Origin: Norana najaformis
Taxonomy: Eukaryota > Annelida > Clitellata > Crassiclitellata > Hormogastridae
Assembly (NCBI GenBank): GCA_964023275.1
Contig: OZ029914.1
Coordinates: forward strand, 40,217,924 to 40,281,923
Length of the DNA stretch: 64,000 bases
Reading direction: 5' to 3'
Under the pieces are notes generated by a model. That model had not been told where the DNA came from, ran no database searches, and saw nothing but the letters and a program-made list of their open reading frames with translations. Position 1 is the first letter of the stretch; every line of letters begins with the position of its first letter. This document shows positions 16,922 through 63,377 of this stretch, piece by piece. Both the position numbers and the translations under genes were made by a program.

Positions 16922-17256
16922 CTAGGGTAGATTCATCATTCTCCAACACGATTCACTGCAATCGGTCACATTGGCATCGACAACATACCCCGCTTCTACA
17001 TAATCACCGACTCCGGAAACAATAATTTTTTTCTCGGATAACAACTTCCAATCGCTGGACATACACGAGGCGTCGACAGCAGTCATCTCGCATTTGCCAT
17101 CATCGCAAACAGGATCGTGTATCAGCCAACGACTTTCGTTCCTCAGAGTCACAACAACTCCGCACAGCAAAGCATCTGGACAGCAGCTGTCGCATTTTGC
17201 ATACAGCTGAGCCTTTACAACACATTCGTCGTAGATCTCAGTCAAATTGGCTCCAT
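16922..17256 (-). CDS. Gene 1 exon 7: Cys-rich C-terminal domain
   Basis: The acceptor is TTTCAG, phase 1, and the stop TAG is at 16922-16924. The 335-base length is identical in all four paralogues. Conserved motifs are IYDECVVKA, KCDSCC, LLCGVVVTLRNESRWLIHD, CDDGKCEM, DASC, WKLL-EKKI and DCSESC. It is not recognised; the Cys spacing with a beta-rich pattern could suggest an OB/NTR-like fold, but that is a guess. Confidence 0.8.
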
Positions 17257-20200
17257 CTGAAATGCAGAGCCACACAATTCGACAGTTTAATAACAAAGAG
17301 TTTATATGAAAGAGAATCGCATCGTAGGAATCTTTTTCTTGAAGTTCTCTGCCCCGAGCAGGTTTGAACATCGAATGGAGCCATATCTGACGTTGTTGGA
17401 CCCCCTTCATCAGTTTACCGTATCCGCCCACCATCAGCCAACCTAGTAGCACTTGTGTATCTCTTCCTCTTCTTTTCTTTCCCTTCCTCTTTCCTCTATG
17501 ATATCTCTCAGAAAGGAATCACCTATCAGTATGTGTCCAATCCATTTCCTCTGCACCTTCCTATTGTAGCCATCAGAGATCTTTTCTCCTCCACCTGTTG
17601 AAGGTGAAGGAGAAAGGTTCCCTGAAAGCTAAATATGAACCATTCACATCTAAATCATTCACATCTAAACGAACCATCAATGTAAAATAAAACGAATTAT
17701 TAGCACCTAAAACTTGTGGTTATCAGTGGTTAGGTTTATAAATGTGAAAAGATTTCATTACTTACTCGATAAATAGATGCTTACCGGACCAACAGTTGCC
17801 GTCCTTTGTACAGCTTAGTGGAGGGCATGTTGGACACGATGGACAATTACATTCTGCACAGTTGAAACAAGTGATGCTGTTATCTTTGTTTATAGGACAA
17901 GGAGTGTTCAGATGTACTGAATTATATCCACAATGAGTTCAAAACAAGTATGCACCTAATCATACACTAAATGTTAACGAAATAAGTTATGTCCATTCTA
18001 GTTGAATAATTTATTTTAAATAGTCACTTTCTAACGTCTCAGCATCGTAGCATTATTTCACATAGAAAAGCAATCGTTGCTTCATTAAAACAGGCCAATC
18101 TTCTGAAACACAAAGTAGTCATTTCCAGTAAAGTTAGAAATGAAGTCAATGTTTGATGGTATTACTCTGAAATTGCTGAGTTTGCATTACCTCAGTGTCC
18201 CCCAAAATTAGCGCTTCAGATGATTGTAAGCTCTAACTTTAAGATGAATGACTGATTCTAAAAAAATTGAGACGGCATTACATGCTGAAGTTGATTGTAG
18301 ACTTGCTATTAATATTGGCAGAGTACCTGTTGTCAAAGGCATTGTAGTTATAGTTGAACGCAGGGTAGTTGATGATTTAGTCGTAAACGTTGGCCAAGTA
18401 GTTGTAGATTTTGGCCAAGTGGTCGTTGGTGGATAAGTCATAGATGTTGGCGAAGGGCAGGTTGGACACGATGGACAATGACACTCTGTAAAATTGAAAC
18501 AAGTCACGCTGTTACCCTTGCTTATATGACAATGTGCTCAAATATACGGAATCAATGTTCGTAATTAGTTTAAGACAACAGTAGATCTATTCAGACACTA
18601 AAAACTAATGAGATAAGTTAAATCCACTCTAGGTTAACAATTATTTTGATTTGTCTAATATCTAACGTCTGAGCCTTGTAATATCATCTTACATATCAGG
18701 GCAATCGTCAGTTCATAATAGCAGGCCACTCCACTGAGGCATAAAGCAGTCATTTTCAGTAAAATTAGAAATGAATATTTGATGGTAAGTATTGCTTTGA
18801 AATTGCTCGGTGAGTTTGCATTACCTCCATAATCCCCAAAATTTGCGCCTCAATTTGTTGTAAGTTCTAACTTAAAGACGGATGACTCGTTTCTAAAATA
18901 CTGATACGGCACTCCTTGCTGAAGTTGATTGTAGGCTTGCTATTAATATTGGAAGGGTACCTGTTGTCGAAGGCAATGTAGTTATAGTTGAACTCAAGGT
19001 AGTTGTTGATGTTGGCCGTGTAGTTGTAGATGGTTCAGTAGTAGATGATGGCCAAGTGGTTGTAGTCGTAGGTATTGGCCAAGTGGTTGTAGTTGGTTGA
19101 GTCGTCGTCGTCTTAGTAGTAGTAGTGGTTGTGGTAGTAGAAGTAGTAGATTTTGGCCGAGTAGTTGTAGTCATATGTATTGGCCAAGTGGTTGTAGGTG
19201 GTTCAGTCGTAGATTCTGGCCAAGTGGTTGTTTCTCCGTTGTTACCTGAATAAATACGTAAACAAATATCTCAAAGGCCAAATAAGTACAACCGAATGGT
19301 AACGAGTGTGAAGACCGTAGAATAGTTACTACCATATTTAATGCGACAACTTGTCCATGCCAATTTTATTTTTGAGAGCTATTGTTTTTGGTGGTGGATG
19401 AATAGTTGTTGTTGGGCTGAGTAGCAGCTGTGGGTAGCTAATTAGTAGTGATGGCTTGCTGAATGGTAGTTGTGGGTGGGTGAGTGGTAGTGGTCGGTGG
19501 ATAAGTAGTAGAAGGTTCAGGCTAGAGAGACAAAATAAATTTATTGCAATGCACCAGGGCACCACCTAACTTTTTACATCCTACAAATGTATTGTTCTGT
19601 TGCAATTTCAACTTCCTTCTTCAATGGGTCGATTTCACTCAAGGGCCCAACTACTTCACCAAATAGTATTCAAGCAGATAACGGAAAGCGTAATATTTCG
19701 ACACCATTCAACTGCGAAATTGCGTAATAACAAAGGAGCATTGTATTGCGACAGTTTAAATTGTAAAAGCTGCTCGAGTAATAGCATTAACATGAAAAAA
19801 AGTTCAAACAGTTGCTGCTACTTTCCACTTTTATCACACCATCAGCAATGGACTTCTTTAGTCTTTACATCTGAGTAAACACAGAATTCCGGTTTGCCTC
19901 AGAAATTTAGAAGAAGAAATCGCTTAAATTTCTGTCGTTAGTGGTAAGATTGCTAAACTCCATGAAAGGAAAGGCTTTACATAAAGTTTACAACTTGTCC
20001 ATCTGTGTAGTTCATGACACGCAACTTCTTGATTCGCTACAACTTCGTTGATAATATTCAGATACCCTCTAATAGTTCCTTTTTCAGGTAAATAGTCATA
20101 CCTCCACAAACTTCATCTTCACTGACAAAACATTGTCACAAGAGAGACCGAGTAGTTGAGACGAGTCCCTGTCCTCTTTGTCAGAAAAGAGACCGGGAAA

Positions 20201-23200
20201 ATTAGGGTAATCTGAAATGTACCATAAGTGGTGTTCAAAGACGTCTCTTGCAGCCACACCAATCCCGTGATATTTGAATTGCTATTTTCCAAATTAGTCC
20301 AAAGTGTAAGATCTTCTTCATCTGTTTCAACTGCAAGTGGAGCTTCCCACACGCTTTGATGTAAGTGAGAGTCCCAAACTCAACAAGTCGCTGAAGCTGT
20401 GTTTCGACCAACTTTTGAGTTTGAAGGCCTCTCGCTGACCATACAAGAGAAATAATTTGATGGCATACCTTAACTTAACCATCAGCCTGGCATGGTAAAC
20501 GGTCTGGAGTTCTCTAGTCAATCCTTATAATGATATTTTCGAGAACAAGCATTGCGAGCTCAAGGTATCTGATTTTTCATCAGTCTTCTCCGATCAACTC
20601 TTTCCTTCCAATCTCATCATACAGATTCTTCATTGTTGATTCTTCGAAAACATTTGCTGCAACCTTCGATTCTAATCCATAGCACATTTCGCGTATCACA
20701 TTGCTTGGAAACGGTCTAAACTCTGCTGAAGGTCGGAATTTCTGATGACCTCAAAAGGTCCACAGCACAATTTAAACGGCTTCGTTAGAATCAATATATT
20801 TCGATTCATAGGTACAGCAAGCCTACCACAGGAGCTCAGGGTCAAGCAGCTCTTTTAGAAAAACACAAGATTCCTGTAATTAAATTAACTGTGCTCACAA
20901 GACCATGTTTTAAAGCTTAGAGCTTGATGATGCTTTTTCTTCAACTTTCATAGGGTTTGCAACGTTGTGTTCATTCTTGTAGTGACCATTTTGACACGCT
21001 ATAAAGTTCATCTAATCCATGTTACGAAAAGACCACTGGGAAACTGTCAACTTTTTCATGTACGTAAATCTCTGGAAGTTTTCGCCATCCCAGTAGACTA
21101 CCAGAGAATATTTTGATAAATATTCGTCAAATGCAGATTCAGCATGTTCTTTTCTGGCTTTTGTTTGCATTTGCTCGATGGTGCTTTGCGAAAGAGGACG
21201 TGGTAATATTCAAGAGCTGCAGCAATTTGTACAATCAATCAACCTGCTGCACGATTAGTTGATTGTTTCAGATTTAAAAAATTCAACATTTTAGATAACA
21301 GGTGATATGTTGAGATTGGTGGAATTTTGTTTACCCGTTGTTCTTTCTTTGAATTTTTAGTTCTGATGGTTCAAATACGGCATCAGAATTTCTGGCAATC
21401 ACAGAACTTTCTGTTTCATCAAGTAGATCTCAGTCTGAGATGATGCTGATGCAGAAGCAGCGATGAATCTATGGCGTCGTTTTTCATCCATATATCGATA
21501 ATGAACGCACTCCAGCTTTACGCCAGATTCTTGTATTTGGATGCCACATTCATATTCTCGTCTCTCGCTATTTAAGGATGAGTTTGCGATTTCATTGATT
21601 CTAATTATAGTCAAGTCATGGACATGGTGCTATCTTAAAATGTGTAATTTTTCTGATTGCATCAGCTGCCTGCTTACATGCACACTGGCCCAGGCCTTCA
21701 TACATAAAAGACTATCCGTTGACTCGACCTTGTTTCATTATGCAGCAAATTATGCTGCAGTATAGCTTATGCGTATGGATGGTTGAAAATAGTCTTGCAG
21801 TTGGCGTGGAAAGCTCACATTTTACCAGAATGAAACAATAAATGACAGTAAAAAACCGAGTGGTGCCATTTTATTTCTATCATTTTCAGTTTTTAAATAC
21901 TCTATTGACTATTGATGGCTGGTTAGCAGTTTTAAGTGGCTAAATAGTAGTTTTGGGTGGTTGTGTATTAGTGGTCTGTTGCTGAGTAGTTGATGTGGAT
22001 GGCTGAGAAGTAGTTAACTGTGGCTGAGTTGTGAGTTGTGTAGCAGTAGTTGTGGAGGCTTAGTAGCAGTTGTGGGTTGCTGAGTAGTCGTTGTCGTAAG
22101 GGGCTGAGTAATAACTGGAGGTGACTGAATTAGTGTTGTAGGTAGTTCAGTATTTTGTACTCGGGTTGAATTAATGGCTGAGTAGCTATAGTTAAGGCCT
22201 GAGTATTTGTCGTATGTAGTTTTGTACCATTCGTAGCTCTTCAGCTTGTTGTGGTAGTAGGATATCGGTGGTAGAAATAGTGGAATCGGCTGGTATTATT
22301 GTGGATTATTTTTCGTTTTTGGTGTTGGTTTGATCGTTGGTTGCTTCAATATTACTGCACAAAGGGAAAAAATTAGAACATGGTGCTTACTGCATTATAA
22401 TGGTGGTTTTTAGGGAGTGTGGAGGCTATCATCCTGCCGAGAAGATTTTAAAGTCATGTTTATTAGGACTAACCTAAGATTTCTTCGGATTGGCATTTCA
22501 GTGTCGTTACAATTTTAATTTAAAACGTCGTCGTTTTCGTCATTTTGCTATTATTGTTACTAATATAGGCCCTAATTTTTAATCTTAGTGTTATTTGTTA
22601 TTTGAACTGTTGTTATTTGTTATTTGAACTGTTATAAGAATTTTATACATAGCGCCCAGTGAAGAGAAACTTATCAGAGGCGGTCTGTATGCTATCTTAA
22701 ATGATGCTACAGTTCATTGTAAGGAAAAGGCTGCTGCCTTACGAACTTAATTTCATGAATATACACTAGAGCTTAGTTGACTAGAAAGCTCAACAGTGTA
22801 CGTGTATGACATGCTGATAAAATATAGCTTTGTGATTTTTCCAAAATACGAGGATGATATGGCAACTCAGTCTCTAATGCCTGATAAATTCACGCTGACG
22901 TTAAAGAACAGACTGATCTAGATTTACATCCAACTCACAAGGTGAATTGCAGGATGCGGTGAACGCGGGTGCATTTGTTGCTACCCAGGCGTACTGGATG
23001 TTCGTCGGTTTCGCAAATGTAACAATGCATTGGTAGTCTGCTGGAACGTCGGCATCGACTGTGATCGTTGATGTCGATACGAACCAATATGTGTCAACTC
23101 TCGACCTCGTCGGCGTTTCCCAAGTGTAGAAATCATCGTTGGACGTCCAGTTCATAACTGCTTTGATAGGATGGAAACTGCTATCGGCATACTTGATGCT

Positions 23201-26076
23201 ACAGCTCAGTTGAAGAAGAGTAGTTGAATTGCTAGTTGAATTGCTAGTTGAATTGATCGCATTGCACGTACACGTTGGACCTTCGCCTGTAGAAGATATA
23301 ATCAGATAGTAATAGCGAAGGAAAAAGGTGAATATGTCCGAAGTGCATATGTATGATTCAGGGCAACAACAGAAGTTCAGGTAATTAAAAGCTAAATTCA
23401 TTAGAATTCTTTATGAAAAGGTGAAAGAAGATTACTATAACTGCTTAGTAACATCACAAATGCATCTAATAAATACAAGACCCGAAACAAGCCTGTGGTT
23501 TGTAACGTTTACTCTGTCAGGAAAACGTTCACTCGTATGAACATTTTAAGATGTTTACTTCATTTATTTAGATATTAGACATCAGATGACACATAAAAAG
23601 TATCTGAAAAACTACAAAAACAGAAACTAATAGCACATAACTCATAAAAACAAGGACCTTGACATCGACATTCTTGGCATTTTTGCATACTGAATATACA
23701 ACCTCAATTTGATTTCTCAATTTCATTTCCAGGTGTTGTAGCGTTGTAGACTCTCATTCCAGTTTCATTAGCACCAAAGACAGCCATAAATGGAGGAAAA
23801 ATAATGTTGTCATAGATTGTAATACATCAAACGATTGCCTCGTCTGAAGTTGGATACACCTTCCAGGTGCCCTTGCAAAGACTGTTGCACAGCTGCCTGA
23901 AAGGTTGGCAAATCAAAGTGGCAGCCGCCGTAGTACTCAATCATGCCAACCATTCAACCAAAGTTATCACGTTCTTTACAATTTTATATTATTTTCATAA
24001 GTTCATCATCATTATATACAGTACGTATATATGTCTACTTACGAACGACAAGTAACTTGGCGCCGCGCCTGACACTGGTAGTGTTTTCTGCGATATACAA
24101 GCCAGCAGTTAATGTCTGATTTGTTCCTGGAGTTGTTGTTGCGTTCTTTATGGTCAGACCAGCCTGGTTGGCTCCATAGAGGCCCGCATAGGAAGGATTA
24201 ACAGAGTCGCTAGAGTTTGTGATAGTAATAACCGTTAGCTCCTCTGAAGTTGGAAAAACCTGCCAAACTGAGGGTACTTGTCTGTTGCAGGTCATTAATG
24301 TATCCAGAGTTCCTTCGTAAACGGCCTGATTTATTGGCGGACTCGAACACTGACCATGGACACCTGGAAAGTAAAGTCAATGATGTGAGCTCTTCGTGAA
24401 GAACTGGGAGCCGCTCATCTGTTTCTAACATTGAGTTTTCCTATGTGATTGCTCATGTATTTGTCAGTATTCTGCTGGGCAACCTTTTCTGCATTTATAT
24501 TCACTTCAACTACAACCTACCCATCTATTAAATCTACCATCTAATATTACTATGTTTCCTTCATGCGCCAGTATTCTGTTGGGCAACATATAATTTATCT
24601 TATCACGCAGTGTGTTTTGAATTTAGGCGTCCATTTTTGTTTAGAAGAAAGGCGCTAAATAAAGTTTCGTTCATAAACCAAAATTCTGTTCTTGTCTGTC
24701 GAGTTCTTGGATTGATTCGTTTCAAGAATAAGTATTTGGTACAGAATTGATAGAGACTGGAGGGACATCTACACAGATCCAAGCGGACTCCGCTCAGCTG
24801 CTTAAACGAAAATTATAAATTACCTTAGCTTGCAGTACTCCGCCGCTGCCTTTTAGTCGGGTAGTGCCAGTCCCAAGCCTGGATAAAGGAGGAGGGCGAC
24901 GTCAACGTCCTTTGATGCCGTAAGATGTCGTTAAACAGTAGAACTGCTACTACTACCTTACTATACATTTTAGAACAGCGCATTACAGTACGCTACAGTA
25001 TGTTTAGTACAATAATATACACCATAATAAGGCGCAATACAATACAATGCAATAAAAATAATGCAGTAAACTGATATTTTTTGGTATTTCCTTATTAAAA
25101 GTTGAGAGCTTCAAGAGCGGATATAAAAGCTATAAGTCGTCTTGGAGCTCTAAAGAAGAGTGTTCGTTTCTTTCGTAGTCGAGTGACATTTCCATCGTAG
25201 AAGAAGTTGTACACGGCAGCCGATTAGTTAGAGTGCTTTGCTTGTAACGAGGAGAATACGGGTTCAAACCTCCCCTCGGACTTTTACTGTGTGGGACCTG
25301 GAAGTCCTTCACTTGCAATTGCTCAGCGCCATCGACTGATGCTTAGTCAAAAATTGTAGCGCCTAATAAATGCATAAATAATAAAAAGTGAAGAACTCCT
25401 AGGACACTTTGACACATCACGCACGTTCAAAAGTTAACGCAGCTTTGCTTATAGCAACAAGAACCGGTTGTGTGACCTGGCGGTCTATTCAGTAGATCGC
25501 CTGGTCTGTAATCCAACGTTTGTTCGAACCATCTGAGCAGACTACGTGTAAACATCCTGGACATGTTGTTTACACACACTCATATAGCGCTTCAGATTCA
25601 GATTTACTGACTTAGCGGGCGTAGAAATGCTATGAATAACAATATGAAAAGAATGGGAATAAACCCATGAAAAGCTCGCTTATCTCAGAATTACAGGTTC
25701 TAATACACCTGATATTACAGATAACGCGGCTACCAACCAACGAAGAGCACTCTGTGATAACAGGCGATGCCACTCAGAAAGCACCATTAACCGTATTTCT
25801 GAAGTGACTAACTGCAAAATTAGCATATTAGCAGTCTATAAAAGTAAATAGGCAAATGACAGATATATGAATATGTCTTAGACTGACCCTAAAATGCAGG
25901 TCATTTAGTCCAGTGTTGGGCTGAAGGCTCTAACAATGGATTTTCTGATGACCATTGCACATAGTAATCACTCTTACTGACATATAGTAAGCCTACTCAC
26001 CTTTTCCCAACAAATCGAATAGTAGCAGAGTGAATGCCAGTCGTAGTAGCATTTCCCTTTTGTTGCCGTTGGTCAT
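16922..26076 (-). CDS. Ig/Thr-rich secreted protein gene 1
   Basis: Model, 5' to 3': signal peptide 26001-26076; Ig1 24043-24363; Ig2 22939-23286; Thr-rich stalk 18961-19245; Cys-Thr module 18327-18536; Cys module 17785-17883; C-terminal domain 16922-17256. The exons sum to 1674 bases, 557 residues plus stop, with all internal junctions in phase 1. There is a signal peptide and no transmembrane segment, so the product should be secreted. The ATG at 26076 was chosen because it precedes the hydrophobic LLLRLAFTLLLF-type core; a second in-frame ATG lies 24 bases on. Ig2 has a 9-residue NST-rich insertion absent from paralogues. The stalk is the irregular TTTWP type, not the 36-base repeat. Role unknown; extracellular recognition is inferred. 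The weakest join is the acceptor of the Cys-Thr exon. Confidence 0.75.
17318..17620 (-). mobile_element. LINE 3' end fragment in last intron of gene 1
   Basis: The minus strand reads RKVQRKWIGHILIGDSFLRDIIEERG with a following Lys/Glu/Arg-rich run, the C-terminal pattern of an RTE-like reverse transcriptase. The same intron in genes 2-4 is shorter and lacks it. Confidence 0.65.
17785..17883 (-). CDS. Gene 1 exon 6: short Cys module
   Basis: 33 codons, phase 1 at both ends, donor GTAAGC. It encodes CFNCAECNCPSCPTCPP and a final CWS. The acceptor AAAG lacks a clear pyrimidine tract but is the only one giving the right phase, and it recurs in all four genes. Confidence 0.7.
18327..18536 (-). 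CDS. Gene 1 exon 5: Cys-Thr module
   Basis: 70 codons, phase 1-1. It starts with a CFNFTECHCPSCPTCPSP module like exon 6 and continues into TTTWP repeats, ending TTG with a GTACTC donor. The acceptor at TTTGAG was chosen because the nearer AG gives the wrong phase; gene 4 has the same 210-base arrangement. Duplication of exon 6 plus stalk sequence is likely. Confidence 0.6.
18961..19245 (-). CDS. Gene 1 exon 4: Thr-rich stalk
   Basis: 95 codons, phase 1-1, acceptor ATTCAG. It encodes irregular TTTWPxxTT repeats with poly-Thr, mucin-like and probably heavily O-glycosylated. It starts with the same NNGETTTWPESTTE sequence as gene 2. Confidence 0.75.
19320..21480 (-). pseudogene. Relic transposon-like reading frames inside gene 1 intron
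   Basis: Broken minus-strand frames (for example 20119-20352, 19924-20109, and ESAFDEYLSKYSLVVYWDGE near 21120) are matched base for base in gene 4's intron (56.6-57.7 and 59.6-60.2 kb), where the same peptide is KYPLVVHSDGEIFPE in another broken frame. A VVHWDG-containing protein is common among unclassified invertebrate transposon-like genes, but I cannot name the family. It is absent from gene 2 and mostly deleted from gene 3. Confidence 0.4.
21900..22355 (-). pseudogene. Gene 1 decayed Thr-rich exon
   Basis: It begins after a TTTGTGCAG acceptor-like site and contains repeated ACAACTACTCAGCC-type units encoding Thr/Pro/Gln, but stops and indels break every frame. Equivalent regions lie in genes 2, 3 and 4. 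Confidence 0.5.
22939..23286 (-). CDS. Gene 1 exon 3: Ig-like domain 2
   Basis: 116 codons, phase 1-1, acceptor TCTACAG, donor GTGAGT directly after CNSP. It has canonical Ig features: Cys in LQLSCSIKYAD, Trp in AVMNWTS, and DVPADYQC. Extra cysteines (TCTC at the start, TASC at the end) may form a second bond. The frame stays open past the donor to a stop, also seen in the paralogues. An NST repeat adds 9 residues. Confidence 0.8.
23708..23897 (-). pseudogene. Gene 1 dead second Ig1-like exon
   Basis: It aligns with the Ig1 exon (C-N-S, T-W-K-V-Y-P-T-S-D-E, FGANETG, YNATTPG), but a TGA follows DEAIV and there is no donor in the right phase. It sits between Ig1 and Ig2. Confidence 0.65.
24043..24363 (-). 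CDS. Gene 1 exon 2: Ig-like domain 1
   Basis: 107 codons, phase 1-1, acceptor TTTCCAG, donor GTAAGT. It starts VHGQCSSPP and contains MTCNR, VWQV, GLTIKNATT, AGLYIAE and GAKLLVV in Ig V-type order. The usual second Cys (Y-x-C) is replaced by Y-I-A, so the C-strand bond must differ; the N-terminal GQC is a possible partner. Confidence 0.8.
24835..24960 (+). repeat. Dispersed repeat with GGTAGTGCCAG...GGAGGGCGACGTCAAC
   Basis: It matches 41235-41345 (CTCCGCC, GGGTAGTGCGAG, CAAGCCTGGGTAAA, GGAGGGCGACGTCAAC, AAGATGTCGTTAAACA). It is probably the end of a non-autonomous or LINE element; class unknown. Confidence 0.55.
25195..25385 (+). mobile_element. tRNA-derived SINE in gene 1 intron 1
   Basis: The tRNA-like head has TTAGTTAGAGTGCTTTGC (A box) and GGGTTCAAACC (B box), followed by the shared tail CAGCGCCATCGACTGATGCT and CCTAATAAATGCATAAAT. 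The same insertion occurs at the matching place in gene 2. Confidence 0.8.
26001..26076 (-). CDS. Gene 1 exon 1: signal peptide
   Basis: ATG at 26074-26076, then a basic segment (NKRE), a hydrophobic core (LLRLAFTLLLFDLL) and a GTGAGT donor in phase 1. The 76-base length equals that of gene 2. Confidence 0.8.
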
Positions 26077-26654
26077 GTTAATTAAGTTTCAGTGCTTAGA
26101 CTTGCTCTCGATCCGGACTTTACACTAAGCACCCGTAACAAAGAAAGTCCAGTTAGAAGTTAGAGTGAAAACCTTGCAAAAACAGGATAACAGTTTTAGC
26201 CTTAGTACCCCAACAAAAATCAATGTCGGTTAAAATAACATAGGGCAGCATGTTGCATAAGCAGAGTTAGACTTGTCAAAATCCTAGTTTAATTGCTTCA
26301 TGATCACAAGAAAGTGAACACAGAGTTACTTCTTGCAATAGATCTACACATCGTAATTCTTTTAAATAGGTGTATCAACTCTGAAACAACGTCAATGAAG
26401 CTGTTTCGATCTCTGCGCAACTGTTTTGCAACATATTGTTGAACAAGTATAATCTCAACTATCTGTTGTCATAATTGTAGATTAGTAAATCAACGGCAGT
26501 TTTCACCTTAATGAATAATCAAAACTAAAAGTCAAACTCAGTGTTCAACGCCTTTTCAGAAATGACAAAGCCATGTCAAGAGCGCATATTAAATGCAACA
26601 CATTCGTTTATTCGTCGAGTCAAAAGGCGCCGTATATTTTTGTTGACTGTTCAG

Positions 26655-26740
26655 TCATTGCTCTGCATCTGACTTTTGTTGGGCGAAATACACCCAGGCC
26701 ATTAAATCAGTCGTACGCATCACGTGCATATTTATAACTT
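26655..26740 (-). promoter_or_regulatory. Candidate core promoter of gene 1
   Basis: TATAAATA on the minus strand (26729-26736) lies inside a block conserved in genes 2 and 3 (ATATGCACGT next to TATA, and GGCCTG 25-30 bases downstream). It is about 650 bases upstream of the ATG. Confidence 0.5.
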
Positions 26741-30175: not shown

Positions 30176-30179
30176 CGGG

Positions 30180-30319: not shown

Positions 30320-30325
<6 letters not shown>
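30180..30325 (+). repeat. Dispersed repeat (AGCGCTGCTTT family)
   Basis: Same family as 15640-15760; it runs directly into the GA microsatellite. Confidence 0.6.
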
Positions 30326-31234: not shown

Positions 31235-31569
31235 CTAGCGAAGATTCATCATTCTCATACACGATTCACTGCAATCGTTCACATTGGCATTGACAATATT
31301 TCCCGCTTCAACATATTCACCGACTCCAGATATTATAATTTTTTTCTCGAATAACAACTTCCATTGGCTGGACATACACGAGGCATCGACAGCAACCATC
31401 TCACATTTGCCATCATCGCAAACAGGATCATGTATCAGCCAACGACTTTCGTTTCTCAGTGACACAACAACTCCGCACAGCAAAGCATCTTGACAGCAGC
31501 TGTCGCATTTTGCATATAACTCAGCCTTTACAACACATTCGTCGTAGATCTCAGCCAAATTGTCTTTGA
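31235..31569 (-). CDS. Gene 2 exon: Cys-rich C-terminal domain
   Basis: 335 bases, acceptor CGTTTCAG, stop TAG at 31235-31237. All conserved cysteines are present (KCDSCC, LLCG, CDDGKCEM, DASC, DCSESC). Confidence 0.8.
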
Positions 31570-34500
31570 CTGAAACGCAGAGCCACACAGTTCGAAAATT
31601 TAATACTAACATGTTTAAATGAAAGAGAATAATGAATCGCATCGCTTGAATCAATTACATCTAAATGAATAAATAACGTTAAATAAAACGAATTATTAAC
31701 AGCTTAAAGTTATGGCTGTCAGTGGTCGAGTTTTAGATGTGACAAGCTTTCATTATTTACTCGATAAATACATACTTACCCGACCAACATTCGTTGTTTT
31801 GCTTACAGTTTTGGTGTTGGTCTGGTGGAGGGCAGATAGGACACGACTGACAATTACATTCTGTAATGTTGAGACAAGCGATGCTGTTACCTTTGTTTAT
31901 ATAGCAAGGAGTGCTCAGACATACTGAATTAGTATTCATAATTAGCTTCAAACAACAACAGATCTAATCAGACACTTAGACCTAAGATCTGAGGTGAACA
32001 TTTCATTTTTACTTCGGCTAAATTCTCATGTCTCAGCATCGTAGCATTGTACATTTTACATAGAGAGGCAAAGGTAGGTTCATCATAACAGCCAAATCTC
32101 CTGAGACAAAATATTTTAGGGCAAAGCTACTAACTTTTGTGCCAATTTAGTATTAAAGCCAATCTTTGACGGTAAGTATTGTTTTTGAATTCCTGTGTGA
32201 GTTTGCATTTTCCTCCATATCATCCATAATGAGTGTTACGGATGATTGCAAGCTCTAAATTTAAGATGGATGACTTGATTCTAACAAAATCGATACACCG
32301 CTACCAATATTACTCCAACTAGAGTACCTGATGTCGAAGGCATTGTAGTTATAGTTGAACGCAAGGTAGTTGATGATTTAGTCGCAAACGTTGGCCAAGT
32401 AGTTGTAGGTTTTAGCCAAGTGGTCGTTGGTGGATAAGTCGTAGATTTTGGCGAAGGGCAGGTGGGACACGATGGACAATGACACTCTGTAAAGTTGAAA
32501 CAAATCATGCGTTACCCTTGTTTACATGACAGTGTTCAGATATACTTCGCAATAAGTTTGAAATAACACTAGATCTAATCAGATACTTAAAATTAACGAG
32601 AAAAGTTAAGTCCACTCTAGGTTAACAATTATTTTAAATTTTTTAATATCTAACATCTGAGCACTGTAGGATAATCTTACATATCAGGACAATCATCAGT
32701 TCATAATAACATTTAACTCCACTGAGCCCCCAGGCAGTAATTTTCAGTAAAGTTATAAATGAAGGCAATGTTTGATGGTAAATGTTGCTTTGAATAGCTC
32801 GATGAGTTTGCATTACCTCCGCATTCCCCAAAAGTAGCGTCTCTAATCGTTGTAAGCTCTAACTTAAAGATGGATGACTCAATTATAATAAAATAGATAA
32901 GGCACAACTTGATGGAGATGGCTATTGGTAACTATTGTGGTTGGTAAAGTACCTGTTGTCGAAGACACTGTAGTTATAGTTGAACTCAGGGTAGTTGTGG
33001 TTGATTCAGTCGTAGATGTTGGCGAACTAGTTGTAGGTGGTTCAGTAGTAGATGTTGGTGAACTAGTTGTTGGTGGTTCAGTCGAAGATGTTGGCGAACT
33101 AGTTGTAAGTGGTTCAGTCGTAGATGTTGGCGAACTAGTTGTAGGTGGTTCAGTCGTAGATGTTGGCGAACTAGTTGTAGGTGGTTCAGTCGTAGATGTT
33201 AGTGAACTCGTTGTAGGTGGTTCAGTCGTAGATGTTAGTGAACTCGTTGTAGGTGGTTCAGACGTAGATGTTGGCGAACTAGTTGTAGGTGGTTCAGTCG
33301 TAGATATTGACGAACTAGTTGTAGGTGGTTCAGTCGTAGATGTTGGCGAACTAGTTGTAGGTGGTTCAGTCGTAGATGTTGGCGAACTAGTTGTTGGTGG
33401 TTCAGTCGTAGATGTTGGCGAACTAGTTGTAGGTGGTTCAGTCGTAGATGTTGGCGAACTAGTTGTTGGTGGTTCAGTCGTAGATGTTGGCGAACTAGTT
33501 GTAGGTGGTTCAGTCGTAGATATTGACGAACTAGTTGTAGGTGGTTCAGTCGTAGATGTTGGCGAACTAGTGGCAGGTGGTTCAGTCGTAGATGTTGGCG
33601 AAGTAGTTGTAGGTTGTTCAGTCGTAGATGTTGGCGAACTAGTTGTATGTGGTTCAGTCGTAGATGATGGCGAACTAGTTGTTGGCGGTTCAGTCGTAGA
33701 TGTTGGCGAACTAGTGGCAGGTGGTTCAGTCGTAGATGTTGGCGAAGTAGTTGTAGGTTGTTCAGTCGTAGATGTTGGCGAACTAGTTGTAGGTTGTTCA
33801 GTCGTAGATTCTGGCCAGGTGGTTGTTTCTCCATTGTTACCTGAATAAATACATAAACAAATATCTCAAAGGCCAAATAAGTATAACCGAACGAATACGT
33901 ATATGAAGATCGTGGAATAGCAGCAATTTGCACCATCTATTAAACTGCTGCACGAATAGATGTTTGATTCTGATTCGAAACATCTGCGACATTCTGGATG
34001 AACAGCTGAAATGTTGAAATTGGTGGAATTTTGTTTGCTTGTTGTTCTGCCTTTGAGGTTTTTAGTTCTGACGGCTCAGTACAACATCAACATTTCTGGC
34101 AAACTCAGAACTTTCTGTTTGACCATGCAGGTCTCAGTCTGAGATTATACTGATGTTGAAGCAGCGATGGATCTCTGGCTCCTTTTTCATCCATATTTAA
34201 ACACAACCCACCCTAACCTCCTCTCCTCCTATCTTTGGTCTTCTGGCTAGCGGACTTGGTTCTTGCTACTGCACCTTTGGACAGCCACACTAACTTGACT
34301 CAGCGCTCGTGAGTAAGCTGCTGTCCTGCGCGTAGCTTTTAAGTAGCGCTTTAGAAATTTCGACTTTACGATTACGATTAAGATGGTGAACCCGCTCCTG
34401 CTTTATCGACAGATTCTTTTATTCGGTTGCCATTTCATTCGGTCCCTCGCTGATCACCGATAAGTTCGCGATTTATTCGATTCTAATCAGTCAAGACATC

Positions 34501-42393: not shown

Positions 42394-42728
42394 CTAGGCC
42401 AGTTGTATCATTCTCTTACACGATTCACTGCAATCGCTAATATTAGCATTAGCAATATTTCCCGCTTCTATAAAATCACCGACTCCAGACACAATAATTT
42501 TTTTCTCGTCTAACAACTTCCAATCATTCGACATATACGAGGCGTTAACAGCAGCCATCTCGCATATGCCATCATCGCAAAGACGATCGTGTATCAGCCA
42601 ACGACTTTCGTTCCTCAAAGTCACAACAACTCCGCACAACAACGCATCTTGACAGCAGCTGTCGGATTTCGCATATAACTCAACCTTTGCAACACATTCC
42701 TCGTAGATCTCATTCAAATTGACTCCTT
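42394..42728 (-). CDS. Gene 3 exon: C-terminal domain lacking two cysteines
   Basis: 335 bases, acceptor GGTTTCAG, stop TAG. KCDSCC is KSDSCC (codon at 42664-42666) and DASC is NASY (codon at 42535-42537). The remaining cysteines are conserved. Confidence 0.8.
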
Positions 42729-48700: not shown

Positions 48701-49068
48701 TACGTAAGTCGCCGTCGGAAGTTTCTAGTACAAGTTAGTGAAAATGAAGATAACAAAGTTGCTAACCAATGAAAAGCAGTGTCTGTTTACACTTGGTGCT
48801 GTTCATTGAGACACACAGCGAAAATTCTCATATGGCTTAGAGACTAGCATTGTCTGTCCAAGTCACTAGGCATTATTGCAGATATGCACATATAATTAGA
48901 TCGACTATATTTCAGGTCATTTAGTCAAATGTGGCGACTGAAGGCTCTGTCAGTGTATATTATACTGGCCATTGTACATATTAATCACTCCTATAGAATA
49001 AAGTAAGTCTACTCACCTTTCCCCAACAAAGCGTATAATATCAGAGTGAATGCCACACTAAGTAACAT
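42394..49068 (-). CDS. Ig/Thr-rich secreted protein gene 3
   Basis: Model, 5' to 3': signal peptide 49017-49068; Ig1 47810-48127; Ig2 46788-47105; Thr-rich stalk 43461-44810; Cys module 42945-43049; C-terminal domain 42394-42728. Total 2478 bases, 825 residues plus stop, all joins phase 1. It has the longest stalk of the four (450 codons, about 37 repeat units) and the most diverged Ig and C-terminal domains. The upstream Met codon used in genes 1 and 2 is AAG here, so translation should start at the second, conserved Met. Two cysteines of the C-terminal domain are replaced together. No Cys-Thr exon was found. Confidence 0.75.
42945..43049 (-). CDS. Gene 3 exon: Cys module
   Basis: 35 codons, phase 1-1, donor GTAAGC. 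It encodes CFNCTECRCPSCPTCPPS; the final CWS of the paralogues is YWS. Confidence 0.7.
43461..44810 (-). CDS. Gene 3 exon: Thr-rich repeat stalk
   Basis: 450 codons, phase 1-1, acceptor ATTCAG, donor GTACTC. It starts with the CHRATTTSPIP type also found in gene 4 and runs through TTSSPTSTTEPP repeats with variants (SLPTS, TSPTS, SKTEPITT). It is fully open despite about 37 units, which suggests selection for coding. Confidence 0.85.
43500..44730 (-). repeat. 36-base coding minisatellite, gene 3
   Basis: About 34 regular units. A block with the rare SKTEPITTSSPTSTTEPP variant occurs near 43830 and again near 44690, indicating duplication of a multi-unit block. Confidence 0.9.
45780..46232 (-). 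pseudogene. Gene 3 decayed Thr-rich exon
   Basis: Corresponds to 60970-61451 in gene 4; Thr/Asn-rich but with stops in all frames. Confidence 0.45.
46788..47105 (-). CDS. Gene 3 exon: Ig-like domain 2
   Basis: 106 codons, phase 1-1, acceptor CCTACAG, donor GTGAGT. Core LQMSCSVKYAD, AIMTWRS, DANVPANYQC. Confidence 0.8.
47490..47690 (-). pseudogene. Gene 3 dead second Ig1-like exon
   Basis: Nucleotide similarity to the matching relics in genes 1, 2 and 4; no open frame remains. Confidence 0.55.
47810..48127 (-). CDS. Gene 3 exon: Ig-like domain 1
   Basis: 106 codons, phase 1-1, donor GTAAGT. VHGQCSTPP, ITCNR, DWQV, AGLYFAE, GAKLLVV. Confidence 0.8.
48330..48415 (+). repeat. tRNA-like fragment in gene 3 intron 1
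   Basis: TATAATGGTTACAGCCTTCT and GGTTTGAGCAT resemble A and B boxes, but the arms do not pair as a complete tRNA. Probably a truncated SINE head. Confidence 0.45.
49017..49068 (-). CDS. Gene 3 exon 1: signal peptide
   Basis: ATG at 49066-49068 followed by LLSVAFTLILYALLG and a phase-1 GTGAGT donor. The upstream Met of the paralogues is AAG. Confidence 0.75.
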
Positions 49069-54587: not shown

Positions 54588-54922
54588 CTAGCGAAGACTC
54601 ATCATTCTTTTACACGATTCACTGCAATCGGTCATAGTGGCATTGACAATACTTCCCTCTTTTATATAATCGCCGACTCCAGATTCAATAATTTTTTTCT
54701 CGTGTAACAATTTCCATTGGCTGGACAAACACGAGGCATCGACCGCAGCCATCTCGCATTTGCCATCGTCGCAAACAGGATCATGTATCAGCCAACGACT
54801 TTCGTTCCTCAAAGTCACAACAACTCCGCACAACAAGGCATCTTGATAGCAGCTGTCGCATTTTGCATACAACTCAGCCTTCACGACACATTTGTCGTAG
54901 ATTTCAGTCAAATTGGCTCCAT
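54588..54922 (-). CDS. Gene 4 exon: C-terminal domain
   Basis: 335 bases, acceptor GTTTCAG, stop TAG at 54588-54590. KCDSCY replaces KCDSCC; the other cysteines are kept. Confidence 0.8.
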
Positions 54923-57900
54923 CTGAAACGCAGAGCCACACAATTCGATATTTTAACACGAAAGAGTTTTATATGAAAGAGAATATTGAAACGCATCGCA
55001 TAAATCAATAACATCTAAATGGATGATTACTGTTAACTAAAACGAATTACTAACAGCTAACAGTTACGGCTGTCAGTGGTCGAGTTTCAGATGTGACAAG
55101 CTTTCATTATTTACTCGATAAAGACATACTTACAAGACCAACACTGGTTGTCTTGCGTACAGTTCTGGTGTCGGTCTGGTGGAGGGCAGGTTCGACACGT
55201 CTGACAATTACATTCTGTAACGTTGAGATAAATGATGCTGTTACCTTTGTTTATATGACAGGAAGTGCTCAGATATCTGAATTAGTATTCACGATTAGTT
55301 TCAAACAACAGCAGACCTAATCAGACACTTACATCTAACGACTCGAGGTGAACAATTCAATTTTACTTTCGCTAATTTCTTACGTCTGAGCATCGTAGCA
55401 TTGCATATTATAAATATACAGGCAAAGGTCGGTTCATAAAAACAACCAAGTCTGCTCAGACAAAATATTTTGGAGGCAAAGCTACTAACTTTTCAGCCAA
55501 TGTAGTAATAAAGTCGATCTTTGATGGTAAGTGTTGTTTTTGAATTTCTGTGTGAGTTTGCAGAGTACCTTTATAACCTCCGGAATAAGCGCTACAGATG
55601 ATTGTAAGCTCTAAATTTAAGAAGGATGATTTGATTCTAACGAAATCAATACACCGCTACTTGCAGCAATTAGTCGTAGGCCCAATATTACACCAAGTAG
55701 AGTAGCCTACCTCTTGTCGAAGGTATTGTAGTTATAGCTGAACGCAGAGTAGTTGATGATTTAGTCGTAAACGATGGCCAAGTAGTTGCAGGTTTTAGCC
55801 AAGTGATTGTTGGCGGATAAGTCGTAGATGTTGGCGAAGGGCAGGTTGGACACGATGGACAATGGCACTCTGTAAAATTGAAACAAGTCACGCTGTTACC
55901 CTTGTTTATATGACAATGTGCTCAGATATACGTAATTAGTTTAAGACAACAGTAGATCTAATCAGACACTAAAAACTAATGAGATAAGTTAAATCCACTC
56001 TAGATTAACAATTAATTTGATTTGTTTAATATCTAACGTCTGAGCATTGTAATATCATCTTACATATCAGGGCAATCGTCCATTAATAATAACAGGCCAC
56101 TCCACTGAGAAGCAAGTCAGTAATTTTCAGTAAAATTAGAAATGAATGTTTGATGGTAAGTATTGCTTTGAAATTGCTCGGTTAGTTTGCATTACCTCCA
56201 TATCCTCAAAATTTGCGCCTCAAGTTGTTGTAAGTTCTAACTTAAAGATGGATGACTCAATTCTAATAAAATAGAAACCTCGTTACTTGATGAAGTTGGA
56301 TATAGGTTACCATTAATGTTGGTAGAGTACCTGTTGTCGAAGGCATTGTAGTTATAGTTGAACTCATAGTTGTTGTTGATGATTTAGTTATAGTCGTTGG
56401 CCAAGTAGTTGTAGGTGGTTAGTCGTAGATGTTGGCGAAGTAGTTGTAGGTGGTTCAGTACTAGATGTTGTCCAAGTGGTTGTTGCTCTGTGGCAAACTG
56501 AATAATTATGTAAAGAAAAATCTCAAAAGTCATATAAATATTATCGAATGAATACGAATATGAAGTCTGTAGAATAGTTTCTACCATATTTAATGCGACA
56601 ACTTGTCCATGTCAATTTCATTTTTGAGAGCTGTTGTTTTATTGTCGGTGACGCATCAGTTGCTGTGGCGGCAGAGTAGCAGTTATGGTTGGCTAAATAG
56701 TAGTGATGGGTTGTTGAATAGTAGTTGTGGGTGGCACAGTGGTAGCGGTCGCAGAATGAATAGTAGCTGGTTCAAGGCCACATTGAAGAAAATAGTTAAT
56801 GCAATACACTAGGGCCCCACCTAATTTTTACATCTAGCAAATATTATGCTCTGGAGCAATTTTAACTTCCTACTTCAATGGGAAGATTGTGCTCAAGGCT
56901 CCAACGAAATAGCATTTGCATAAAAATTTAAGCAGATAAGAGAAAACGTATTATTTCGATAACACACGCAACTGCGAATTGCAAATTAACAAACAAGCGT
57001 TATATTGTTTCAGTTCTAATTGAAGACGCTGAAAATTAAGAGTTTTATTAATTATATTAATCTGAAAATGTGTTCGGGCAGTTGCTGCTACATTCCTCTT
57101 CTAGCACAGCTTCAGCAACAGACTGCTTTATTGTCTGAATGAAAGAGAAATCCGAGTTGCCCCAACAGCTTGAAGAAGAAATCGCTTATATCTCTGTCGT
57201 TAGTTAAAAGATTGTTAAACTGATCGAAAAACTCAACTCGGCCAGCTGTGTCGTCTACGCCTCGCAACTTCATGAATCGTCTCTTCTTTCTAGACAGTAT
57301 TCTGATCGCCTCTTATAATTCCTTTTTTGGGTATGTACAGTAGTCACACCTCTACAAACTTCTTCTCCTCTTTTGAAAGTTTGTCACAAAAGAGATTTGG
57401 AAAATTAGGGTCGTCTGAATTGTACCATAAGTGAAGTAGGGTCGTCTGAATTGTACCATAAGTGGTGTTCAGAGACTGCTCTTGCAGCCACACCAATCCC
57501 GCGATATTTTACTTGGTATTTCCAAGATATGGGAGTTTGAAGTTCTCTCGCTGACCATACAAGAGAAACAATTTGATTGCGTACCTTAACTTAGCCATCA
57601 GCCTGGTATGGTAAACGGTCTCGAATTCTTCAATATATCCTTATAATGGTACTCCCGAGAACAACCATGGTGAGATCAACCTCTTTGATTTTTGATCAGT
57701 AATATTTGATCAATGATTTCCCTGCAAATAACACATCGCTGAGATTGGTCATTGCTGATTCGATGAAAAATTTTGTTGCAGCCTTCGGTTTCAATCAATG
57801 TTCTCTTAAAGCTGCGCACGTGCGAGCGCACACAAGTTTTAAGGATAGCGCGCACAACAATTTTCTGCCAGCCCACACATTTTGTGAGCGTTCCGGTTAC

Positions 57901-60900: not shown

Positions 60901-63377
60901 GATTAATACAATAAATAAAAGTAATAAACCCAAGGAGTGCCCTGATATTTGCCATCAATTTCAGTTTTTAAGCATCCATCTGACAGTAGGTCTTAATGGC
61001 TGATTAGTAGTTGTAAGTGGCTAAATAGTAGTTTTGATGGTTATGTTGTAGTGTTCTGTGGCTGATTAGTTGATGTGGATGGTTGAGAAGTAGTTGAATG
61101 TGGCTGAGTGGTAGTTGTGGGTGGCTGAATAGTAGTTGTGGTTGGCCAAAAATCAGTTGTTGGTTGATAAGTAGTAGTTGCCTTTGGGAGCTGAGTCAGT
61201 GTTGTAGGTGGTTCAGTAGTTTGCGTTGGGGTCGTGTTGTAGTTGTCTTTTCTGGTCGTGTTGTAGTTGTCTGTTCTGGGAGTAGCTAATAATGAGGCCT
61301 GAGTTGTTCCTTGTGGTTTCATAATTTTCGTAGCTTTTCGGTTTGTAGTGGTAGTTGGATGGGTCGTAGGAGTAGTGGAGTTGGCTGTTGTTATTGTGCA
61401 GTATTTTTCGTTTTGGGTGTTGTGGTAATCGTTGGTTGCTTCGTTGTTACTGCACAAAGTGAACAAATTAATAAGAGGGTGCTAGTGGGAATTCAGTGGA
61501 TTATAGTAGTGGTTGTTAGTGAGTGCATGTTTTGTGGATGCTGTCACCCTAGCGAGAAGATTTTTAAGTCATGTTAATGACGACTAACCTAAGATTTCTT
61601 CGGTTTGGCATTTCAATGGCGATGCAATTTGAATTTTGAACAGGCTTTAAGCCCAACGTCATCGTTTTCGTCATTTTGCTATTATTGCTAATAATATAAT
61701 ATTTAATCTTTGTGCTATTTGTTATTTTAACTGTCATGAGAATTTGAAGAGAAACTTATCAGAGGCGGCCTCTGTTCTATCCTAAATGATGATACAGTTC
61801 ATTAATATCAAATAACGACGTACTTACTTACTAAAGTTGCGCAAATATAGTTAGAAATGTTGCCAGTGTACGTGTGTGCCATGTTGGTAAAGTAAAACGT
61901 TTTGATGTTTACGAAATACGAGGATGATATGGTAATTTAGTCTGTAATGGCCTGATTCAATTATGCAGACGTTAAAGAATAAACTGATTTAGATTTACAT
62001 CGAATTCACAAGGTGAATTGCAGGTTGCGGTGAACGCGGGTGCATTGGTTGCTATCCAGGCGTACTGGATGAGCGTCGGTTTCTCAAATGTAACATTGCA
62101 TTGGTAGTTTGCTGGAACGTCGGCATCGACTGTGATCGTTGATGTTGATACGAACCAGTATGTGTCAGCTCTCGATCTAACAGACGTATTCGATGAGTAA
62201 AAATCGCCGTTGGATGTCCAGGTCATAAAGGCATTGATCGGATGGAAACTGCTGTCGGCATACTTGACGCTGCAGCTCATTTGAAGGCTTGTTGAATTGG
62301 TCTCATTGCACGTACACGTTGGACCTTCGCCTAGAGGTGATACAATCAGATAATAATAGCGTAGAAAAAAGGGTGACGATACGATATCTGGCATGCACAT
62401 GAATGATTCAAGACAATGATAGAAGTTCACGTTATTAAACGCTAGTATTATTAAAAATCTTTATTAAAGGCGGAAAGAAGGTTACTCTACCTGTTTATTA
62501 ACATCACAAATGCATCCAATAAGTATAGAATACAAGATCCGAAACAAGCCTGAGGTTTGTAACGTTTACTCTGTTAGGAAAACCTTCATTCGTATGAACA
62601 TTTTGAGATAGTTACTTGAAGTATTTACATTTTAGACATTAGGTGACACACGAAAAAGTATCTGAAAAACTACGAACAGAAGATAATGGCATAAAACTCA
62701 CAAAGAGCAAGAATCTTGCCGCTGACATCCTTGGCACAGTTTTTCATACTGAATGTACAACCTGATTGATATCTTGCCCCATTTTATGTGTAGTAGCGTT
62801 ATAGACTGTCACACCTGTTCCATTAAAACCACAGACAACCCCTAGTGGAAGAGAAGCAATATTGTCATAGATTTTGATACAACAGCCAGTTAACTTGTCT
62901 GAACTCCGATACACCTGAAAGGTTGGCAATGCAAGATGGTAACTATCTTCATGCTTTACCATGCCAACTTTCCCTCTAAAATCAAGTTGTTCACAATTTT
63001 ACATGAATTTCATAAGATCGCCACAATAATATTCGGTAGTATGTATGTCTACTTACGAACGACAAGTAATTTGGCGCCGCGCCTGACAGTGGTAGTGTTT
63101 TTTACGATATACAAGCCAGCAGTTGCCATCGGATTTGTTCCTGGAGTTGTTGTTGCGTTCTTTATGGTCAGACCAGTCTGGTTGGCTCCATAGATGCCCG
63201 TATAGGAAGGATAAACAGTATCGCCAGAGTTTGTGATAGCAGTAGTAGATAATTCATCTGAAGCTGAAATAACCTGCCAAATTGCGTTTACTTGTCTGTT
63301 GCAGATCATTAATGTGTCCAGAGTTCCTTCGTAAATGGCCTGGTTTATTGGCGGCGTCGAACATTGACCATGGACAC
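54588..63377 (-). CDS. Ig/Thr-rich secreted protein gene 4 (5' end outside window)
   Basis: Visible exons: Ig1 63057-63377; Ig2 62010-62330; Thr-rich 56331-56497; Cys-Thr 55711-55920; Cys 55134-55244; C-terminal 54588-54922. The signal-peptide exon should lie beyond 64000. The Thr-rich exon is 167 bases, not a multiple of three, because one base is missing near 56421, giving an early stop. If that exon is skipped, the phase-1 neighbours still join in frame and give a stalk only of the Cys-Thr type. A hAT-like transposon occupies the long intron. One C-terminal cysteine is Tyr (CDSCY). It may be functional with a short stalk or on the way to a pseudogene. Confidence 0.65.
55134..55244 (-). CDS. 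Gene 4 exon: Cys module
   Basis: 37 codons, phase 1-1, donor GTAAGT. YLNVTECNCQTCRTCPPP, ending CWS; the first Cys of the module is Tyr. Confidence 0.65.
55711..55920 (-). CDS. Gene 4 exon: Cys-Thr module
   Basis: 70 codons, phase 1-1, same length and layout as in gene 1 (CFNFTECHCPSCPTCPSP then TTTW-type repeats). Confidence 0.6.
56331..56497 (-). pseudogene. Gene 4 frameshifted Thr-rich exon
   Basis: It starts CHRATTTW like gene 3 and enters the 36-base repeat, but GGTTCAGTCG is GGTTAGTCG near 56421. The shift leads to a stop within about 12 codons. Splice signals are intact. Confidence 0.7.
57409..57466 (+). repeat. Tandem duplication of about 30 bases
   Basis: AGGGTCGTCTGAATTGTACC...ATAAGTG occurs twice in a row; gene 1 has a single copy at 20203-20231. 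Confidence 0.8.
58033..58170 (-). repeat. Internal direct repeat of the hAT-like element, copy 1
   Basis: Shares CCACATAATA, CACTAGTTGTCA, GGTGCGCGCGCTG and GAATGACACCTCCATCTACT with 58636-58787. Confidence 0.75.
58215..58640 (-). repeat. 21-base minisatellite (CAGCATCGAC core)
   Basis: About 20 units on the plus strand of the form CCGGTCAGCATCGACAAATA with variants; the distal half is regular, the proximal half looser. Long frames here (58205-58657 and 58324-58581) are caused by the 21-base period. Confidence 0.9.
58636..58787 (-). repeat. Internal direct repeat of the hAT-like element, copy 2
   Basis: Second copy of 58033-58170, with a short insertion (AAACAGGGGCAAAACAT). Confidence 0.75.
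58962..58992 (+). repeat. Inverted remnant of the minisatellite
   Basis: TCGATGCTGGCCGGCTG followed by AAGTCGATGCTG is one and a half units in the opposite orientation to the main array. Confidence 0.65.
60379..60566 (-). mobile_element. Dispersed repeat inserted in gene 4 intron
   Basis: Same insertion as 34195-34382 in gene 2. Confidence 0.65.
60970..61451 (-). pseudogene. Gene 4 decayed Thr-rich exon
   Basis: The best preserved of the four: after GTGCAG it is open for about 135 codons in a Thr/Pro/Gln frame (TTTTIQPPTTTTQ), but that frame needs phase 2 while Ig2 ends in phase 1, and the phase-1 frame stops after 20 codons. It could also be a real alternative exon. Confidence 0.5.
62010..62330 (-). 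CDS. Gene 4 exon: Ig-like domain 2
   Basis: 107 codons, phase 1-1, acceptor CTCTAG. The donor is GTGAAT, weaker than GTGAGT in the other copies. Core LQMSCSVKYAD, AFMTWTS, ANYQC. Confidence 0.75.
62765..62925 (-). pseudogene. Gene 4 dead second Ig1-like exon
   Basis: Reads TFQVYRSSDKL, IKIYDNIASLPLGVV and VYNATTHK, parallel to Ig1; truncated at the start. Confidence 0.6.
63057..63377 (-). CDS. Gene 4 exon: Ig-like domain 1
   Basis: 107 codons, phase 1-1, donor GTAAGT. VHGQCSTPP, MICNRQVNAIWQV, AGLYIVK, GAKLLVV. Confidence 0.8.

Follow-up and report, generated by a model that had tools for sequence, protein, structure and literature searches.

Four copies of a modular gene for candidate Ig-headed, mucin-stalked secreted proteins in the annelid Norana najaformis

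We describe four copies of a modular gene in a stretch of 64,000 nucleotides of the annelid Norana najaformis (the window; C2:40217924-40281923, where C2 is contig OZ029914.1, in a 608-Mb genome of 17 contigs), whose introns and gene content are those of animal nuclear DNA. Our interpretation, to which we give roughly an even chance, is that the four copies belong to a large family of recognition proteins, expanded in tandem, with immunoglobulin (Ig)-like heads on mucin stalks. In the gene models the order of parts is a signal peptide, two Ig-like domains (Ig1 and Ig2), a Thr/Pro stalk, two CPxCPxCP modules (CP1 and CP2) and a C-terminal domain (CTD), with all junctions in phase 1. The family may recognise microbes or other foreign surfaces.

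Gene models, reading frames and domains

The four minus-strand copies (A, B, C and D) are repeats of one unit whose mutual alignment spans exons and introns alike, with about 66-85% DNA identity in most BLAST pieces outside the stalk repeats. Exon borders were set from this alignment together with GT/AG sites. An earlier note, made from the letters of the window without database searches, had described four same-strand paralogues between positions 16922 and 63377. The alignment of exons and introns, the splice borders and the phase-1 junctions bear this out, and the two limits proved to be the last base of the stop codon of copy A and the first base of the Ig1 exon of copy D. The domain order given there holds in full for A and B, whereas copy C lacks the CP1 exon and the first (signal-peptide) exon of copy D lies beyond the window. 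Whole-codon totals had also been claimed, correctly for A, B and C, the three copies with all their exons inside the window, which after joining encode 522, 719 and 815 amino acids in one uninterrupted frame each. In copy D the Ig1, Ig2, CP1, CP2 and CTD exons are open, but the stalk exon measures 167 bp, two more than a multiple of three, and has stops in the expected frame. A 21/63-bp tandem repeat array also lies within copy D (58219-58641). Models A-C start with a hydrophobic segment (best 19-residue means 1.61-1.92), and a transmembrane segment is not apparent in them, no 19-residue mean exceeding 1.22 past residue 25.

The coding exons and the introns differ in the kind of gaps that separate the copies. 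The CTD exon is 335 bp long in all four and free of indels, and Ig1 and Ig2 exons differ by whole-codon indels only, those of Ig1 all being 3 bp long. Introns show 1-15 gaps per pair (11-24 in the intron between signal peptide and Ig1), and in every pair more than half of these have lengths not divisible by three; in the Ig1-Ig2 intron this applies to 8-13 of the 9-15 gaps per pair. The same intron contains a decayed second Ig1-like exon, detected by tblastn in A and C and covered by the DNA alignment in all four copies. Read by eye, it keeps a full open frame in none of them, being interrupted by stops or breaks of the frame in A, B and C and by a deletion in D, and it serves as an internal control: the used Ig exons, open in all four copies, were kept open while the unused one lost its frame. 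Directly after Ig2 comes a Thr-rich block (e.g. 61041-61481) that looks like a decayed duplicate stalk because the copies differ there by indels of lengths not divisible by three, and our models take the later stalk exon instead.

Ig domains are recognised by a B-strand Cys, a C-strand Trp and an F-strand Y-x-C. C20, W38 and Y76-Q-C78 are invariant in Ig2 of all four copies, as are C25 and W33 in Ig1, where the F-strand Cys is absent. The Ig identity proposed earlier is a matter of these motifs; beyond them, no Pfam Ig family matched Ig1 or Ig2 in four copies each at E values up to 10, Ig2 reached antibody light chains among PDB sequences at E 0.31-0.56 only, below photosystem chains in the ranking, and the predicted model of Ig1 failed, with a pLDDT (predicted local distance difference test) score of 29. 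Since divergent Ig domains can escape Pfam, we leave the fold open and call both domains probably Ig-like, an assignment by motifs that does not file them under the immunoglobulin superfamily. In the stalks of A-C, Thr, Ser and Pro make up 76-85% of 94-449 residues, a composition of the mucin type, and 36-bp tandem repeats build the stalks of B and C. The stalk is predicted to be O-glycosylated. For the CPSCPTCP string we found no literature match in open-licence PubMed Central.

Size and diversification of the family

Further copies outside the window were sought, as had been suggested, and many were found. All genome counts are lower bounds, the best candidates having been scored. The CTD has at least 23 matches: ten at 40.23-40.35 Mb of C2 (four in the window, one partial), five at C2 51.03-51.38 Mb, five on C12 and three at C2 33.0 and 36.9 Mb. 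With those obtained on C6 with a relative as query, the count is at least 27. Ig1 has at least 81 matches, 76 without and five with internal stops; 60 lie at C2 51.03-51.72 Mb, near the end of the 51.80-Mb contig, and 59 of these on one strand, while two matches of the 40-Mb cluster are the decayed exon. For Ig2 the count is at least 87, some of them fragments of a single exon, with 66 in the same interval and internal stops in three, the other 84 being free of them. Two genes at C2 51.04-51.08 Mb share 37-43% (Ig1) and 34-36% (Ig2) identity with copy A, yet both retain a CP module, and their CTDs still show 71-74% identity. In one of these genes a long Thr/Pro frame is clearly visible. Given 60 Ig1 but only five CTD matches in the 51-Mb region, most Ig pairs there are without a recognisable CTD. 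Only a few stretches of this array were read. In two of three (L033, L034 and L038) the Ig2 exon is followed by a long Thr/Pro frame, and in one of them (L034:5919-9998) such a frame runs for about 1360 codons past Ig1-Ig2 to the end of the stretch. In L033:1-10000 (C2:51.202-51.212 Mb) Ig1-Ig2 pairs recur with a period of 2239 bp and identical or nearly identical translations, which reflects either the recent amplification of a cassette or an artefact of assembly. Beside another Ig1-Ig2 pair lie an open frame that by eye looks like a C-type lectin end and a further Ig-like frame (L035:3-374 and L035:9375-9794).

Ig1 is the fastest and the CTD the slowest evolving part of the unit. Pairwise ratios of nonsynonymous to synonymous substitution rates (dN/dS, or omega; six pairs each) are 0.85-1.44 for Ig1, 0.40-0.77 for Ig2 and 0.30-0.48 for the CTD. 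We extended the comparison to nine copies, comprising A, B, C, D, G, I and J plus two from elsewhere on C2 for Ig1 and Ig2, and A, B, C, D, E, G, H, I and J for the CTD, with the diverged copies of the second cluster excluded. In this set, model M2a was preferred over M1a for Ig1 (p=0.0031), where a class with omega 2.3 takes in 35% of sites. The preference was weak for Ig2 (p=0.017) and absent for the CTD (p=0.78), whose omega of 0.60 is below 1 at p=0.0022. On the four copies of the window, the p values of the site test were 0.04 (Ig1), 0.0096 (Ig2, one site) and 0.13 (CTD).

The exons also disagree on how the four copies are related. Sites supporting the splits AB|CD, AC|BD and AD|BC number 7:32:7 in the Ig1-Ig2 intron, and the same split leads in the region that follows Ig2 (6:19:5) and in CP2 together with its intron (0:12:1). 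The counts are 4:4:11 in Ig1, 12:2:1 in Ig2 and 4:5:1 in the CTD. Relative to the Ig1-Ig2 intron, Ig1 (p 6e-4; one of 2000 permutations as extreme) and Ig2 (p 1.4e-5; none of 2000) differ, and the CTD does not (p 0.2; 468 of 2000). Such conflicting exon trees suggest gene conversion, which is favoured for Ig2 by the mainly synonymous nature of the sites that group A with B (8 of 12). Together with the expansion of the Ig exons and the fast Ig1 beside a conserved CTD, these discordant trees lend indirect support to the recognition family that the earlier note had put forward.

Several points weigh against this interpretation. The splice joins of all four models are inferred from alignment and splice sites, copy D carries a frameshifted stalk, and the Ig folds of Ig1 and Ig2 were unconfirmed by any library searched. 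Outside the window, copies E (L009:8798-9175) and H (L013:2528-2905) have stalk, CP and CTD frames with no Ig1 or Ig2 match upstream, and an Ig1 match in copy F contains two TAG codons. The site test is our own implementation, in which branch lengths from iqtree were merely scaled, and gene conversion can inflate such a test. Across all sites the omega of Ig1 is 1.02, indistinguishable from 1 (p=0.89), and in all six pairs the adjacent intron has diverged more than the synonymous sites of Ig1 (dS), which pushes omega up. Finally, 9 of the 11 sites in Ig1 that group A with D are nonsynonymous, so that selection rather than conversion could explain this grouping.

Some of these observations would suit a family of mucins with a structural or adhesive role (in mucus, egg jelly or attachment secretion), where the work is done by the stalk and weak constraint lets Ig1 vary. 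The stalks are long and driven by repeats, including the very long Thr/Pro frame of the 51-Mb array, E and H dispense with Ig matches, and the average omega of Ig1 is close to 1. On the other hand, Ig1 frames have stayed open next to an Ig relic that decayed, and the site test yields a class with omega above 1; we consider a mucin family a possible but rather doubtful explanation. That the array is decaying, with few or no working genes, is very improbable: although the stalk of D, the stops in Ig1 of copy F and the decayed Ig and stalk relics point that way, A, B and C are fully open, the CTD is under constraint and the great majority of Ig1 and Ig2 matches in the genome are free of internal stops. 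A function in self/non-self or gamete recognition rather than microbial defence seems unlikely to us. Tandem Ig genes that evolve fast and bear traces of conversion fit allorecognition or fertilisation as well as they fit immunity; the lack of a visible transmembrane segment in models A-C speaks against such a role, and otherwise nothing in the data separates it from the recognition of foreign surfaces that we favour.

The C-terminal domain and its relatives

The CTD had been called unrecognised, and searches of Pfam, NCBIfam and PDB sequences gave it no noteworthy match. Across the Pfam searches, those with Ig1 and Ig2 included, matches to the families Nbas_N, PSI_PsaE, zf-HC3, DUF3337 and others stayed under the cut-off and were taken as chance. 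No CTD was found in viral contigs, and a Foldseek search gave no match at E 0.001 or better with a model that was itself poor (pLDDT 39.7). The domain does have relatives, though, that stand alone: on C12 (five) and at C2 33.0 and 36.9 Mb (three), one open frame in each case encodes a hydrophobic start and then the domain. With a CTD as query, the C12 members were reached at E 1.3e-9 to 3.4e-9, and the alignment with stand-alone members extends across the whole domain at 29-41% identity. Four related frames on C6 were found with a relative as query. As a protein-database query, a stand-alone member returned 14 proteins of 50-68% identity, and a profile search 27 proteins at E 1 or better among the 7995 candidates scored. 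With the profile of the Ig-type CTDs, 20 proteins were retrieved, including LOC123523859 of the clam Mercenaria (E 3.1e-4) and proteins of the fishes Enoplosus armatus (E 6.5e-4) and Echeneis naucrates (E 0.023). No NCBIfam family reached the cut-off with the stand-alone relatives either. Judged by these alignments, the CTD is a member of an unnamed, putatively secreted family with the pattern H-x-GVVVTL...RWLxHKG...DNC and is not unique to the Ig genes.

Stand-alone members carry, with exceptions, H-x-GVVVTLxxGxRWLVHKG and DNCxHA, and in some of them Ser or Ala replaces the Cys. The CTDs of the Ig genes differ from this family in that they lack the first His, have extra Cys residues and are fused to the Ig-mucin modules. 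Among 14 of the 15 Ig-type CTDs (partial copy F being left out), the first His is absent and the second His and later Cys are present in every one. The full His/His/Cys set, whose positions we take to be catalytic in LRAT and PPPDE enzymes, was not found in any of these 14. Because the first His is missing, the CTD of the Ig genes is probably non-catalytic.

LRAT and PPPDE proteins are permuted papain-like enzymes, placed in cluster II (PMC10318531). The stand-alone family resembles them in its H-x-[AG]-[IV] and N-C motifs, whereas the CTD has no accepted Pfam match and an incomplete His/Cys set. In a first hhalign comparison with LRAT/PLAAT the E value was 0.0037 at a probability of 9%, and none of 60 shuffles scored as high; a second gave a local score of 23.6, E 0.0021 and a probability of 13.5%, with none of 100 column shuffles as high. 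In global mode there was no signal, 14 of 60 shuffles scoring as high, and the first His was in register in the first of the two alignments and out of register in the other. Three of the four LRAT-type sequences in this comparison are provisional, and the shuffle control is weak, as a rejected pairing with TIMP also beat 60 of 60 shuffles. The Mercenaria relative matched PPPDE at E 0.005, under the cut-off. A permuted papain-like (LRAT/PPPDE-like) fold of the CTD is thus a weak lead. Taken further, the Ig heads might direct a CTD that is itself an active enzyme, a secreted thiol hydrolase or acyltransferase, and the H-x-G...H-K...N-C pattern of the relatives, which recalls these enzymes, the local hhalign score and the PPPDE match would be in keeping with this. 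Given the His missing throughout the Ig-type CTDs, the low hhalign probabilities, the global result, the weak control and the loss of Cys from some stand-alone members, we rate an active enzyme as highly unlikely and retain a probably non-catalytic domain. A Netrin-like/TIMP fold, suggested by eye, was rejected at an hhalign probability of at most 1% and a register other than expected; the TIMP pair scored 15.9, above all of its shuffles, which the C5 and mixed profiles did not achieve. One database relative (P0008) has a different, Cys-containing N-terminal segment ahead of the CTD-type domain, so fusions that involve this domain may have arisen on more than one occasion.

Known counterparts, proposed mechanism and features of the window

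Biomphalaria FREPs have one or two N-terminal Ig domains, a spacer and a conserved C-terminal domain, their Ig domains are more variable than the C-terminal domain, and gene conversion has been reported (PMC7588048). The present family shares N-terminal Ig-like heads, a spacer region and a conserved C-terminus below a variable Ig part. It has a Thr/Pro stalk and CP modules in place of the FREP spacer, and the more variable domain is Ig1 here but IgSF2 in FREPs. Ciona VCBPs are described as secreted proteins with a leader, two N-terminal V-type Ig domains and one C-terminal binding domain, with VCBP-D lacking the chitin-binding domain (PMC7947342). Leader, paired N-terminal Ig domains, single C-terminal domain and secretion recur here as predictions from the genes. 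However, Ciona has four unlinked genes as opposed to a large tandem family, and the heads described here are assigned by motif as Ig-like, not specifically as V-type. Neither the fibrinogen-like domain that is the hallmark of FREPs nor the chitin-binding domain of VCBPs matched the CTD in profile searches. Since these defining C-terminal domains were not found, the family belongs to neither, although it is laid out like both and may work like them.

If it does, the protein would be exported via its signal peptide, and an O-glycosylated stalk would keep the two Ig-like heads apart from the base, where the CPxCPxCP modules would form disulfide links. The conserved, probably non-catalytic CTD would bind a constant partner such as mucus, matrix or a host receptor, and the diversified face of Ig1 variable targets, e.g. 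microbes. Diversity would be supplied by duplication, gene conversion among Ig exons and selection on Ig1. A bolder version is speculative and, in our view, improbable: a new animal recognition repertoire of about 80 exons each of Ig1 and Ig2, mostly crowded towards the end of one contig, which selection and gene conversion have diversified and which are set on mucin stalks, with up to about 15 copies using an inactivated descendant of an old secreted papain-like enzyme as anchor or sensor. The architecture is not described in any title or abstract start that we found in open-licence PubMed Central, which is not proof of its being unpublished. Should the recognition reading hold, the few secreted Ig-type recognition families listed for invertebrates would be joined by one of a new layout, with an unnamed conserved tail, a contrast between variable head and conserved base and an exon-level conversion signal, the last of which could be tested in populations. 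The kinship of the CTD links this tail to a widespread, unnamed animal family of putatively secreted proteins.

Table 1. Exons of the four gene copies, in positions of the window
Copy	Feature	Position	Strand	Basis or remark
A	Signal-peptide exon	26001..26052	-	phase 1 end; aligned in A, B, C
A	Ig1 exon (1-1)	24043..24363	-	alignment + GT/AG
A	Decayed second Ig1-like exon, Ig1-Ig2 intron	23728..23889	-	tblastn E 5e-10; stop in translation
A	Ig2 exon (1-1)	22939..23286	-	alignment + GT/AG
A	Thr/Pro stalk exon	18961..19245	-	76% T+S+P
A	CP1 exon, CHCPSCPTCP + Thr tail	18327..18485	-	alignment + GT/AG
A	CP2 exon, CNCPSCPTCP	17785..17853	-	alignment + GT/AG
A	CTD exon with stop	16922..17256	-	alignment + GT/AG
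B	Signal-peptide exon	38883..38934	-	alignment + GT/AG
B	Ig1 exon	36968..37288	-	alignment + GT/AG
B	Ig2 exon	35879..36202	-	alignment + GT/AG
B	Stalk exon, ~23 units of 36 bp	32953..33840	-	tandem repeats
B	CP1 exon	32328..32486	-	alignment + GT/AG
B	CP2 exon	31780..31860	-	alignment + GT/AG
B	CTD exon with stop	31235..31569	-	alignment + GT/AG
C	Signal-peptide exon	49017..49068	-	alignment + GT/AG
C	Ig1 exon	47810..48127	-	alignment + GT/AG
C	Decayed Ig1-like exon, Ig1-Ig2 intron	47430..47633	-	tblastn E 0.002
C	Ig2 exon	46788..47105	-	alignment + GT/AG
C	Stalk exon, ~36 units of 36 bp	43461..44810	-	tandem repeats
C	CP2 exon (CP1 absent)	42945..43019	-	alignment + GT/AG
C	CTD exon with stop	42394..42728	-	alignment + GT/AG
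D	Ig1 exon	63057..63377	-	alignment + GT/AG
D	Ig2 exon, donor GTGAAT vs GTGAGT	62010..62330	-	alignment
D	Stalk exon, frameshifted	56331..56497	-	translation
D	CP1 exon	55711..55869	-	alignment + GT/AG
D	CP2 exon	55134..55214	-	alignment + GT/AG
D	CTD exon with stop	54588..54922	-	alignment + GT/AG

Elsewhere in the window, a P-element-type transposase helix-turn-helix domain is encoded at 5831-6208 on the minus strand (PF12017, E 1.7e-12). A run of long open frames on the same strand at 797-4093, among them one that weakly matches a C2H2 zinc finger (E 1e-4, slightly under the cut-off), looks like a degenerate mobile-element gene. On C15, two of the stretches read (L036 and L037) contain apparent nuclear copies of mitochondrial COX1 fragments.

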